Shown here piece after piece: positions 40,401 to 45,400 of a stretch of DNA of 64,000 bases (positions are counted from its first letter, which is position 1; the number at the start of each line of letters is the position of its first letter). This DNA comes from Halichondria panicea (lineage: Eukaryota; Porifera; Demospongiae; Suberitida; Halichondriidae): the NCBI RefSeq assembly GCF_963675165.1, contig NC_087390.1:3486001-3550000 (forward strand), written 5' to 3'. The translations under genes were made by a program, and so were the position numbers. A model generated the notes under the pieces. The model saw only the letters and a list, made by a program, of their open reading frames with translations, was not told the origin of the DNA and made no database searches.

Positions 40401-41163
40401 ATCTTCCCTAAATTTAAAGTAATGGCCACCATTATTTGTGGGGATGGCCACCATTATTTGTGGGGATGGCCCCCAGATGAACAATCATGTAGCATTCTGA
40501 GTCTAATAGTGTAACTATAGAGAACTATCTGGGCGAAGAAACATCATTGCACTAATTTTCCCAGTCATGTGAGCAGCGGGTGTATGTGGAGACAGAGTCC
40601 TCTGAGGTAGTCAACACCTGCTGGGCTCTACTTGGACTCATGGCTGTCAGGTAAGTAGGCTCAACACTCATACAGTTTTTAAAAATTAGACTTCTGTGAG
40701 AGTGCTTGTTCACTATAACTATTATTATGACTCTGGTACATCTTTTCAGATATCCTGACCCCAGTGTCATAGCCAAAGGCATCAAGGTTAGTGGAATGGA
40801 ATAAAAGCTTGTACTGCTTTAGTATTAGTTCAGCTAAGATGTGTAACACGCATGATGGTACATACTTTTGTGTGTGTCAAACCCTCTCTATAATAATAGG
40901 TGGTAATGAGCCGACAGCTCTCTAATGGGGACTGGAAACAGGTACGTTTATACTCGGCACACAAATATATTGGATCTATCAACTATTATAATAATTTTGT
41001 TTGTATCTCTCATACTCTATGCCCCTTCTATCAGGAAGGAGTGAAAGGTGTGTTCAACAAGACATGTGCCATAACGTACACCAGCTACCGAAATGTGTTT
41101 CCCATCTGGACCCTGGGACGCTTTTCACGTCTCTATCCGGACATTGACTGCAGTGAAATATAA
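34439..41163 (+). CDS. LSS: Lanosterol synthase (oxidosqualene cyclase)
   Basis: Twenty-three exons: 34439-34627, 35016-35154, 35503-35611, 36078-36296, 36407-36464, 36719-36796, 36969-37077, 37312-37430, 37583-37680, 37778-37805, 37862-37918, 38111-38182, 38264-38314, 38517-38614, 39056-39107, 39283-39485, 39717-39782, 39835-39915, 40096-40180, 40565-40650, 40750-40786, 40900-40941, 41035-41163. 2205 nt, 734 aa (human 732). It cyclises (S)-2,3-oxidosqualene at the ER membrane. Seen: [19 protein letters not shown]-type repeats ([28 protein letters not shown]); catalytic VSDCTAE with the proton-donor Asp458; end [19 protein letters not shown]. Val456, two residues before that Asp, is the lanosterol-type residue (cycloartenol synthases have Ile), so lanosterol is the predicted product. 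A 5' untranslated exon may exist; the first ATG after the acceptor at 34431 is used. Confidence 0.96.
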
Positions 41164-41508
41164 CTCTTTCTATAGTGTGCCATTTATTGGTAACCTGTAT
41201 TTTCATCCAATGTTTTAACTGCATATTATTGTATATTATACTACACATGACTTTTATTACAGTATATACAGTAGTGAAAAAGCGCGCAGTGGGCACAAAA
41301 AAAGTTGTTGAAAAATTATGTTACTGTGCATGAATTCTCGGCTATGTGTAATAAATAGCTTATATATACACATGTACGTACAATTATTATGTCTGTACCA
41401 TAATTATATATTCATAGCATTATAATTGATAGACACAATAATTGAAGATGAAAAAGCTAGTGAAATAAGAATGTAAACTGCAACAGGTAGGTAGGTATAG
41501 AAAGAATA
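41164..41508. other. Convergent spacer LSS / TrpC
   Basis: 345 bp between two converging stop codons. AT-rich, with AATAAA-like words on both strands, as expected of facing polyadenylation regions. Confidence 0.4.
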
Positions 41509-42261
41509 TCAAGTATCACCGATCATTTCTCTGATCATAATCCTCGGGTCAGCACTTGTGACTAGAGCCTCTCCTACTAGCACTGCATCAAACCCCGCCT
41601 CATACATCCGTCGAGCATCTGCCACACTCCTCACACCTGACTCCGCCACTCGCACACACTCACGAGGGATGCTGTTAACTGATTGTTCCGAAGTTGCTAA
41701 ATCCACTTTAAAACTTTTTAAGTCACGATTGTTGATACCAATTATCTTTGCTCCAGCAGTCATGGCCAATTCAATTTCTTGTTGGTTATGCACCTCGACT
41801 AGTGCATCCATTCCTTGCTTGTAACACAATTCTATAAATTCCTTCAATCTGTCCCCGAGTACTCGTACAATAAGCAATACTGCATCTGCTCCAATGGCTA
41901 CAGCTTGTGAAATCTGTACTGGATCGATAATAAACTCTTTCTGAAGAACTGGAATTTCTACTCCTTTTTTAATAGTTACAAGGTCTTCAATAGTTCCTCC
42001 AAATCCTTCTTCATCAGTGAGAACAGAAATAGCTGCTGCACCTCCAGATTCATATTCCTTGGCAAGTGAGAGAGCATTCAGATTGACGTTGATATCTCCT
42101 TTAGAGGGTGACTTTCTCTTGATCTCACCGATCACAGATAGTCCTGGTTTTTGGAGAGCTTTCAAGAAAGAATTTGAGTTAGTTTTCTCTTGGTATGGCA
42201 CACATATCCCCTTTATTTCTTCTTTCTTTCTAGAAATGATCTTCTCAAGAAAATTGTCCAT
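41509..42261 (-). CDS. trpC: Indole-3-glycerol-phosphate synthase, bacterial type, intronless
   Basis: One 250 aa exon, the full length of a monofunctional bacterial TrpC. It closes the indole ring: carboxyphenylamino-deoxyribulose phosphate to indole-3-glycerol phosphate, the fourth step of tryptophan synthesis. Family motifs appear in order on the TIM barrel: GEIKRKSPSKGD (E46, K48), ISVLTDEEGFGG, PVLQKEFIIDP (K108), GADAVLLIVRVL, ALVEVH (E156), IIGINNRDLKSF (N177/N178), VAESGV (E207, S208) and AVLVGEALV. These are the catalytic and phosphate-binding residues of the family, so it looks active. No targeting sequence is visible. Animals generally lack tryptophan synthesis, and no other trp gene is in the window. 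It sits tightly between LSS and a MORN2-like gene (start to start 177 bp), both intron-rich, so contamination is unlikely and horizontal transfer is the simplest reading. Confidence 0.93.
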   Translation of the reverse strand: MDNFLEKIISRKKEEIKGICVPYQEKTNSNSFLKALQKPGLSVIGEIKRKSPSKGDINVNLNALSLAKEYESGGAAAISVLTDEEGFGGTIEDLVTIKKGVEIPVLQKEFIIDPVQISQAVAIGADAVLLIVRVLGDRLKEFIELCYKQGMDALVEVHNQQEIELAMTAGAKIIGINNRDLKSFKVDLATSEQSVNSIPRECVRVAESGVRSVADARRMYEAGFDAVLVGEALVTSADPRIMIREMIGDT

Positions 42262-42438
42262 TTTCCATCGAAAAATTATTGGTAAAGGTCACCTACTCTA
42301 AAAAAGAGGTAGGGCCTAGGGTGTGTTGTCATAGACACCGTACCGTACCACAGGCCAGCTTTCTTACGACACGTACCTACGTACTTTGGAACAGAGCAGT
42401 GTCAGTCACACAGTACAGTAGATCTACAGACAGCTATT
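42262..42438. promoter_or_regulatory. Short divergent promoter, TrpC / MORN2-like
   Basis: Only 177 bp separate the two ATGs, so the transferred gene very probably uses an existing bidirectional animal promoter. No TATA box was placed. Confidence 0.45.
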
Positions 42439-45400
42439 ATGCCAGGTACGTATGCTATGGAGTCGTAAATTAGTAGCGATATAGACTCGCAAGCCGTCAC
42501 TGTTGCGCGGCAAACAGTAGACTTGTCAAACTCCGTGTAGAGACTCGTGTTTGCACAGTAATCAGCATACCATAATTTATAGCAGGAAATTTTTGCGTTT
42601 TCAAGGGCAGAGCAGTAACGCGAAAATTAAAACCGGGATAAACTCCCGCGCACTGGTATTTTCACATGCAAAGCTATTAGTTGGTGTGGTTTCCTGGCAT
42701 TGAACCACAAATATTAGAACCCACGAAAATGTTTGCTGAGGGCTCTGGATCCAAATAGCGAAAATGTTCACCCCCTTTTCTTGCTAGAATACCAGTGATC
42801 ATTGTAGATTAGATCTGTGTAGTCTAGCTCATCTTAATACTCAGCTTGCAACTTCCAAGGAAGTATGGTTTAAAGCGGCACACATCACAGGATATATAAA
42901 AATTATGCTTACAATCAATTTACATAGCATGCGGAATAGCAGACCATCTAGTTGTTGACTTTTTTGAAGCTGAAGAGCAAGATGACTTCATGCATTCTAC
43001 TATGTACCATACTTTTTATAGCAGAAATGTTCGCATTTCAATGCCAGGAACCACACCCACCAGTAGGTTTCCATGTGAAATGCGAGTGCGTGGGAGTTTA
43101 ATTTTAATTTTCGCGCTAACTGTCTGCCCTCGAAAAACGCTAAATTTTGCACCTCACAAAAATTTCCCGTATGTCATTATAGTTATGCCTCGAGGCGTAG
43201 CCGCACGAGGGATACGGTAAAGCTGACTGTGTGTGTGTCTGTCTGTGTGTGTGTGTGTGTATTCCAGCTATAACTGCTCAACGGTTACAATGCGACGAAA
43301 ACTAACAGCTTCTATAGGCTTCTAGCCACGTTCTCTTGGATTTTGATTCGTGGATTAGCAAACTAAAGCTTCTTTCTCGAGTTATGGCTAGTTTGACTCA
43401 CATTGAAGGCTGTTGCAGTCTCTTCAGAATCTTTCATAGCATCATCTGTCCGCACAAACTTTCTATTCAACATATGAGTTAGCCTTGCACTAAAGCGCTA
43501 GCTTTTTGTTAGCTACAATACTCAGAAAATATCTGTTAAAACAGCTAGCTAGCAGTACAGTAGCCATTTGTAAAATTGATCTCTTTGGACACACCCTTTA
43601 ATTATTCCTGTGGATGTAATGCGCATGCGCGCTCATTCCCCATGTGTGAGAAAATAATATCCAAGATCCAGATCCAGATCCTCCTGGCAGAATCATCTTT
43701 GTCTTGAGGGCCTGGTAAGCCACAAAACACTACCATATAACAATATAGATAACAATATGCATGTACACAGGTCTTTTCTTCTTAGATATTATATACACTG
43801 AACTACAGATCCTGGAAGAATCAATTTTCTTCTTTCTTGATGTCCTGGTAAGCCACATAATACAAAAAATAATAACTTACAATAGATGCATGTAAATAAG
43901 TCTTTTCTTCTCAGTGACTTTATATAGATAAGCTAACTTTAATATAAAATTCATTATAGATAACACTCTAATACTTTTGAGCGAAAGCAAAAACATGGCG
44001 AGAGGCATTAGCACAGCGCCAGCTTGAACACTAGTTGATATAGCAACCATGACCAGAAAGCTACACTGATTGGGCTTTGTTGACCTTTTTTTAGTAAAAA
44101 TGTTTCTGTCCCTAACACTTCATAAATTAATCATATAATTATGGTATATACATACATAATTATTATAATTATACATTTTTACCGTATCTTGTTAACAGGA
44201 AAGTCTCAGGCCAAGCAGCATGAATCAAAAGCTGGAGGTGAGGTCATTTGTGTGCCGTCATTGTGTATGGTAACGCTAGTTGCTAACAATTACACAATTA
44301 CATGACTGTACGTGCAGGCACTAAGAAGCTGACGGACAGTTATATATTCCCTGATGGTGAAAAATACGGTAAGAGGATGATGTAATTGTTGTGGGATGTG
44401 TGTTGAAATGCAGAATCACATGCAATCACTTGGTGAATAGGAATCTAACTCTAAGAGCATACATGTATCAGTCATTCAATCGAAATAATATAGTCTCTAG
44501 TACTACGTAGGTTCATGCTGTTCCAACTGCATACTTATGTACGTTGGTATATAGCTTTTTCGAGTTTCTACAATCAATAGGTCAACCAGCACTATCTTTA
44601 GCATGAAACTACTCTGGCTTTTCCGTTGTTATACCTTGTGACTGCTACAAGTATATAGACTAGAGGATGAGTACCTCCTATACACTTCATTTCCCCAGTT
44701 GGAGAGTATGTTGACTACGGCAATGGTGTGATTGAGAGGAACGGTGAGGGTACACACAGCTTTTCCAGTGGACTAGTGTACAAGGGAACCTGGAGCAAAG
44801 ACAAAATGAATGGAACTGGTACAATACAATATTACTGATTGAAGTGCATGAAAGTGCAACGGTGTACATGTTATGTGTACTAACATGATGCTTATGATAC
44901 TTGCTCAAGATAATTTTATATGATTACTAACAAAGTATCAATTAATGCTGTCGTCTCTGTTTCAACTAGTCATTCTCTCTGTTTCTTCAGGTGAGCTGAT
45001 TCATCCCAATGACTGCACATACAAGGTGTACAATACTACTCACTGTAGCTACAAGGAAGATCTAGACACTGCACAGTGCAGGAAATTTGTAACGAAATGC
45101 ACTCCCGCATGATCAACCCATTAAATTAATAACAACATCTGTGGTTCCTATGAGATTCTGGCATACTGATACTGATTTGACTGTTAGTGTACGCTGATTT
45201 ATACAACTATATAGGGCACATTTGTTGAGAATGAGTACCATGGCAGTGGTGTATTTCAGTGGCCAGATGGATCTATGTTCACTGGACAATTCACCAGCAA
45301 CAGGTACAGTGGGACGATAATCTCTGCTGTGCACCTATGCAAGCTAATAACATTCCATGAAAAGTGTTGTATAACAAATCATCTGTACATGTTGCAACGA

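Follow-up and report, generated by a model that had tools for sequence, protein, structure and literature searches.

A tryptophan-pathway gene of probable chlamydial origin in an animal chromosome, and a candidate two-step module with TrpF

Tryptophan synthesis is reported to have been lost in the animal stem lineage (PMC4339202). What, then, is a gene for one of its interior steps doing in an animal genome, from where did it come, and what might it be kept for? The gene lies in the window studied here, by which we mean the whole stretch of 64,000 nt that was analyzed (C14:3486001–3550000), part of a genome of 131.5 Mb in 39 contigs; the features discussed are collected in Table 1. It comprises one uninterrupted open reading frame of 250 codons plus stop, and the opposite strand of the same interval holds no open reading frame of more than 94 codons. 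Residues 11–246 of the translation match positions 7–254 of the 254-position Pfam IGPS profile (E 5.6e-76, 255.5 bits, cut-off 27), and NCBIfam model NF001377 (TrpC) is passed with 281.8 bits at a cut-off of 260, with the other 13 IGPS models listed for this frame matching below their own cut-offs. The nearest solved structures are IGPS chains, and E46, K48, K108, E156, N177, E207 and S208, which we take to correspond to the catalytic positions of solved IGPS enzymes, are all present. In an alignment with 108 other TrpC rows the protein keeps every one of the 24 columns with at least 98% conservation and 46 of the 48 with at least 90%, that is, 22 of the 24 columns in the 90–98% range, the exceptions being E109 in place of D and S194 in place of L. 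Its start resembles that of chlamydial TrpC, and there is neither an N-terminal extension nor a leader. The frame is a full-length indole-3-glycerol-phosphate synthase, far beyond what chance would give. An earlier note on this DNA, which described a complete IGPS of 250 residues with the catalytic residues of its family, is borne out in this respect, the coding strand being the minus strand, as it is in placing the single-exon gene between lanosterol synthase (LSS) and a MORN gene.

Table 1. Positions of the features discussed (window numbering unless a contig is named)
Feature	Position	Strand	Basis and remarks
LSS, last exon with stop	41035..41163	plus	E 1.9e-15 to LSS chain 1w6k; tail to tail with TrpC
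Possible polyadenylation signal AATAAA	41253..41258	minus	some 250 nt beyond the stop codon of TrpC; by consensus only
TrpC (indole-3-glycerol-phosphate synthase) CDS	41509..42261	minus	open reading frame plus Pfam and NCBIfam profile matches; single exon
Stretch duplicated in the partial copy (5' part of TrpC plus upstream flank)	41928..43184		recurs in blocks, 84–96% identity
Fold-back repeat upstream of TrpC	42587..43147		arm pairs 42587–42632/43102–43147 (76% complementary) and 42660–42691/43049–43080 (84% complementary)
MORN repeat exon, adjoining gene	45215..45277	plus	profile match
TrpF open reading frame, 220 codons	C17:2437845–2438507 (L003 1483–2145)	minus	PRAI profile match; single exon

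The LSS stop codon and TrpC are 345 nt apart, within a contig of 6,511,711 bases, and further cyclase matches are found at about 36.09–36.29, 39.28–39.46 and 40.11–40.18 kb, the last of these being under the family cut-off. Past TrpC a second AATAAA starts at 41188. Wnt genes are not known outside animals, and Wnt exons, which occur on three contigs of the genome that bears TrpC and in none of the 14 prokaryote controls, mark this genome as that of an animal, plausibly a sponge. The TpG/CpA excess of the TrpC gene (1.21) is host-like (1.25 in the host window), unlike that of the loci of its relatives (0.97–1.10). TrpC thus belongs to a chromosome of the animal itself and has animal genes on both sides, as is expected of a bacterium-to-animal transfer.

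About 55 kb from the intact gene, on the same contig, lies a partial second trpC (C14:3582807–3583100, locus L002) that consists of the 5' half and the upstream repeat. It ends after about 110 codons, carries a K108 to E replacement, and by its sequence reads as truncated and dead. A truncated copy that has kept its flank indicates that the gene is chromosomal, since a bacterial contaminant would not show such a copy. Blocks of the fold-back repeat are also present beside the dead copy; the repeat is probably a nonautonomous transposon and may have taken part in the duplication. The dead copy differs from the intact gene by 4 silent and 4 replacement codon changes in 100 codons, with flank mismatches, as counted from the alignment, of a similar order, and this divergence speaks neither for nor against selection.

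The closest relative of the animal TrpC in a contig collection, among the best 80 of at least 482 relatives, is that of Simkaniaceae bacterium M30B1 (locus L004; 55% identity, E 2e-86), the rest being 40–50% identical. The five best matches among 232 Chlamydiota genomes are at 58–63% identity (E 3e-82 or better), while the sixth is at 51% (E 4e-73) and none beyond the five exceeds 53%. TrpC matches occur in only 40 of these 232 genomes, so that tryptophan synthesis looks patchy in the phylum, and in some cases (for instance L091) the TrpC match is part of a long open frame that includes TrpF as well. A careful maximum-likelihood tree was built of 109 rows, comprising the animal gene, 30 chlamydial and 78 other rows and no eukaryotic ones, after dropping six loci (repeats, the window's or the host genome's own), exact duplicates and loci numbered above L115; 11 of the 41 Chlamydiota matches had no cut locus and are hence absent from it. 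In this tree the animal TrpC falls within a chlamydial clade of 31 rows (support 99/98) as sister to five Simkaniaceae-type rows, with support of 100/98 for this clade of six and 94/95 for the five by themselves, and a 56-row tree repeats the clade of six at 100/98. We took a column as a signature if the residue of the animal protein occurs in three or more of the five rows but in no more than 10% of the remaining 103. Of the 236 columns counted, 13 qualify. Without the column filter the number is 15; by the same unfiltered count four other named quintets have 1, 1, 0 and 2, and none of 500 random quintets has more than 2. AU tests did not reject rival trees that hold the animal TrpC outside the 30 chlamydial rows (p 0.177, 0.23 and, in the 56-row analysis, 0.443) or join it to Bacillaceae (p 0.096). 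Bootstrap support and signature columns thus favor Simkaniaceae-type Chlamydiota as the likely donor group, while the AU tests leave rival placements standing. With bacterial rows in the phylogeny, the earlier proposal that trpC was acquired from a bacterium and kept intact finds support in the chlamydial clade and in the conserved residues, though no rival placement is rejected.

As read by eye from the translations, trpC stands among trpG/D/F/B frames in all five nearest relatives, between trpD and trpF and with trpB following, and the order in M30B1 is trpE-G-D-C-F-B-A; Pfam profiles confirm this reading for TrpC and TrpF of L086 and for the TrpD-family and PALP (TrpB-type) neighbors in L088. 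The Simkaniaceae-type proteins (M30B1 L004 and L086–L089) are like the animal TrpC in length, start and catalytic motifs, at 55–63% identity, but their genes lie in a trp operon, whereas the animal gene is alone in a chromosome with animal neighbors. Plasmids hold only distant TrpC relatives (below 60% identity), and among viral contigs no relative of TrpC or TrpF was confirmed.

TrpC is not the lone enzyme that the earlier note had supposed. The same genome holds an intact single-exon frame for TrpF, the preceding step, on contig C17, which is the sole match to the PRAI profile (E 9.2e-41, 145.6 bits, cut-off 22.7). About 240 nt from it, on the same strand, is a Mito_fiss_reg-like exon (E 3.6e-5, 24.5 bits, under the cut-off of 26.3). 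None of the 19 columns with at least 90% conservation is changed in the protein, which has C14, R43 and D138, of which we take the Cys and the Asp to be catalytic; its score stays under every NCBIfam TrpF cut-off (best 197.8 vs 215), and it is the full-length match together with these two residues that places it in the family. In a tree with few Pseudomonadota rows and no eukaryotic TrpF, from which 36 of the 134 matched loci were left out (32 near-duplicates, 4 partial or oddly framed), the animal TrpF forms a long branch (1.57) and is placed, with support of 96/91, together with four rows from Pseudomonadota and one row each from Synergistales and Exiguobacterium. Its identity to Simkaniaceae-type TrpF is 29–33%, and a tree joining the two is 39 log units worse (p 0.085). 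A single transfer of trpF and trpC is disfavored by this identity and by the grouping elsewhere, although with p 0.085 it is not firmly rejected. The affinity of TrpF thus probably differs from that of TrpC and is nonchlamydial, and two consecutive steps, encoded by unlinked genes, apparently derive from two sources. Relatives of the animal TrpF on plasmids (below 60% identity) and in phages are distant only. Among 72,556 plasmid records, 1877 carry a trpF-like gene (1516 of these are typed as conjugative), mostly from enterobacteria.

Of trpA, trpB, trpD and trpF, which the earlier note proposed to look for elsewhere in the genome, trpF is accordingly the one that was found. TrpA, TrpB, TrpD and Chorismate_bind (TrpE) gave no match in the host genome at E 0.001, each having matched 14 of the 14 controls, and Glycos_transf_3 gave none even at E 0.05; matches come exon by exon, and the lack of a match in this assembly is no proof that a gene is absent. 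From the full pathway TrpE, D, F, C, A and B, only TrpC and TrpF were found. A kynureninase cluster on C9:6171148–6175992 (L153) consists of nine exon-sized pieces, none over the cut-off of a model that matches 9 of the 14 controls. An exon from either half aligns with one and the same region of solved kynureninases (E 9e-35 and 1e-36), and the cluster therefore represents two tandem, intron-split genes and shows that split genes are visible to the search. These kynureninases are a possible source of anthranilate.

The reading that we prefer, at a probability of roughly 55%, is that trpC came from an intracellular chlamydia of Simkaniaceae type and is kept, with a separately acquired trpF, as a two-step module whose ends are supplied by bacteria. 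The trpC gene would have entered the animal nuclear genome from such a chlamydia, relatives of which inhabit sponges and have trp operons, and the single-exon trpF, acquired separately and located on another chromosome, would have been retained together with it. In the animal cytosol TrpF would convert phosphoribosylanthranilate (PRA) to CdRP and TrpC would convert CdRP to indole-3-glycerol phosphate (IGP), the bacterial-like start of TrpC, which has no leader, being consistent with this location. Resident bacteria would supply the ends, with PRA or its precursors coming in and IGP going out to bacterial TrpAB, since the host searches turned up no gene for the earlier (TrpE/D) or the later (TrpA/B) steps; host kynureninase could be a further source of anthranilate. 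From the sequences we infer expression, enzymatic activity, metabolite exchange and selection for the pair as a unit. PRA is short-lived in water, and with no host TrpD found its import would be awkward, so that the missing TrpD is the weakest point both of a pathway shared with bacteria and of supply through kynureninase. The shared pathway gains from the presence of TrpF and from the trp operons of the donor group, and is limited by the missing matches to TrpD, TrpA and TrpB; trp operon genes are present in the five closest Chlamydiota, and bacteria of this kind could supply the missing steps if they live in this animal. We make it our first choice because tryptophan synthesis genes are reported to be commoner in sponge-associated Simkaniaceae, for which an exchange of aromatic amino acids, or their provision to the host, has been suggested (PMC9666466), and we place anthranilate from host kynureninase second. 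A more specific form, in which the middle of the pathway was rebuilt from the genes of two donors as a PRA-to-IGP bridge between host kynurenine catabolism and bacteria, is put forward tentatively, the odds being against it.

Among the alternatives, a route confined to the host fares best, although we consider it unlikely. Here anthranilate from kynureninase would be turned into PRA without a classical TrpD, either by a different phosphoribosyltransferase or by spontaneous formation from phosphoribosylamine; TrpF and TrpC would then carry it on to IGP for the animal's own indole compounds. The two tandem kynureninase genes and the intact state of TrpF and TrpC fit this route, but kynureninase is ordinary in animals, neither TrpD nor Glycos_transf_3 was matched as a source of PRA, and no TrpA or TrpB was found that would use the IGP. 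To our knowledge, TrpD-free formation of PRA comes from bacterial work only. The production of anthranilate from host kynurenine has been described for Chlamydiaceae (PMC4916741).

Somewhat less probable again is that both genes are expressed for a side activity or a nonenzymatic role, or are arrivals not yet lost that have no selected function. The ends of the pathway were not found in the host, and one trpC copy, truncated and bearing K108E, is already dead, as such an account would have it. Both proteins, however, have their catalytic residues intact and depart from hardly any of the strongly conserved columns despite their long branches, and two consecutive steps arriving from two sources would be an unlikely coincidence if they had no function.

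We likewise doubt, slightly more strongly, that trpC came to the animal through an alga or some other eukaryote which had itself acquired the chlamydial gene. Red algal TrpC, and TrpF and TrpD in Archaeplastida, are reported to be chlamydial by transfer (PMC4916741), but the animal trpC has neither introns nor an N-terminal targeting extension, it closely matches present-day Simkaniaceae-type genomes, and the TrpF of the same genome is not of chlamydial type in the best tree. There is little to recommend a pathway more complete than seen, with trpD, trpA or trpB concealed in gaps, withheld stretches or heavily split exons: exon-by-exon matching leaves room for it, but the like search did find the single-exon trpC and trpF and the intron-split kynureninases, and the profiles that recovered their targets in every control recovered none in the host. 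Bacterial contamination or misassembly, which might be suspected of a single-exon gene with bacterial kin, sponges and similar animals being full of bacteria, is rejected with near certainty in view of the cyclase exons beside trpC, the nearby LSS stop within a multimegabase contig, the second copy with the same flanking repeat on that contig, the host-like dinucleotide bias and the failure to find genes for TrpA, B, D and E anywhere in the assembly.

Our reading of trpC as a chlamydial gene kept beside a second bacterial enzyme has precedents on either side. Algae and plants are the same in that chlamydial tryptophan genes were taken up by a eukaryote, and a Simkania-type operon is reported to have been transferred to another intracellular bacterium (both PMC4916741); algae and plants, however, make their own tryptophan, whereas in the animal two interior steps only were found, and the best tree places its TrpF outside the chlamydial type. 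The whitefly genome holds bacterial argG, argH, dapB, dapF and lysA for consecutive amino-acid steps and is like the present case in that these are nuclear genes of bacterial origin, distinct in source from the present symbionts, which cover successive reactions in pathways to essential amino acids that host and bacteria share; as described there, the whitefly genes complement gaps of obligate symbionts and are found in the bacteriocyte transcriptome, whereas the genes here are known from genome sequence and serve interior tryptophan steps (PMC4607527). Genes of bacterial origin are likewise known from the sponge Amphimedon queenslandica (PMC4784904); in the main text of that study no word starts with tryptophan, indole or TrpC, and in a compendium of animal transfers from 2026 tryptophan and indole occur among the references only. 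A search of titles and abstract openings found no paper that names an animal trpC or trpF, sponges included, and supplementary tables may list such genes. Bacterial amino-acid genes in animals are thus known, and what is probably new here is the combination of interior steps, apparently two sources and a probable chlamydial donor. If so, the gifts of chlamydial genes described for algae and plants would extend to animals, in the form of two intact consecutive enzymes, and the locus would offer a definite case, open to testing, in which the host holds interior steps of a pathway. Should the PRA-to-IGP bridge prove true, part of the metabolism of tryptophan, the nutrient over which chlamydiae and their animal hosts contend, would in this animal be a circuit shared between host and bacteria.
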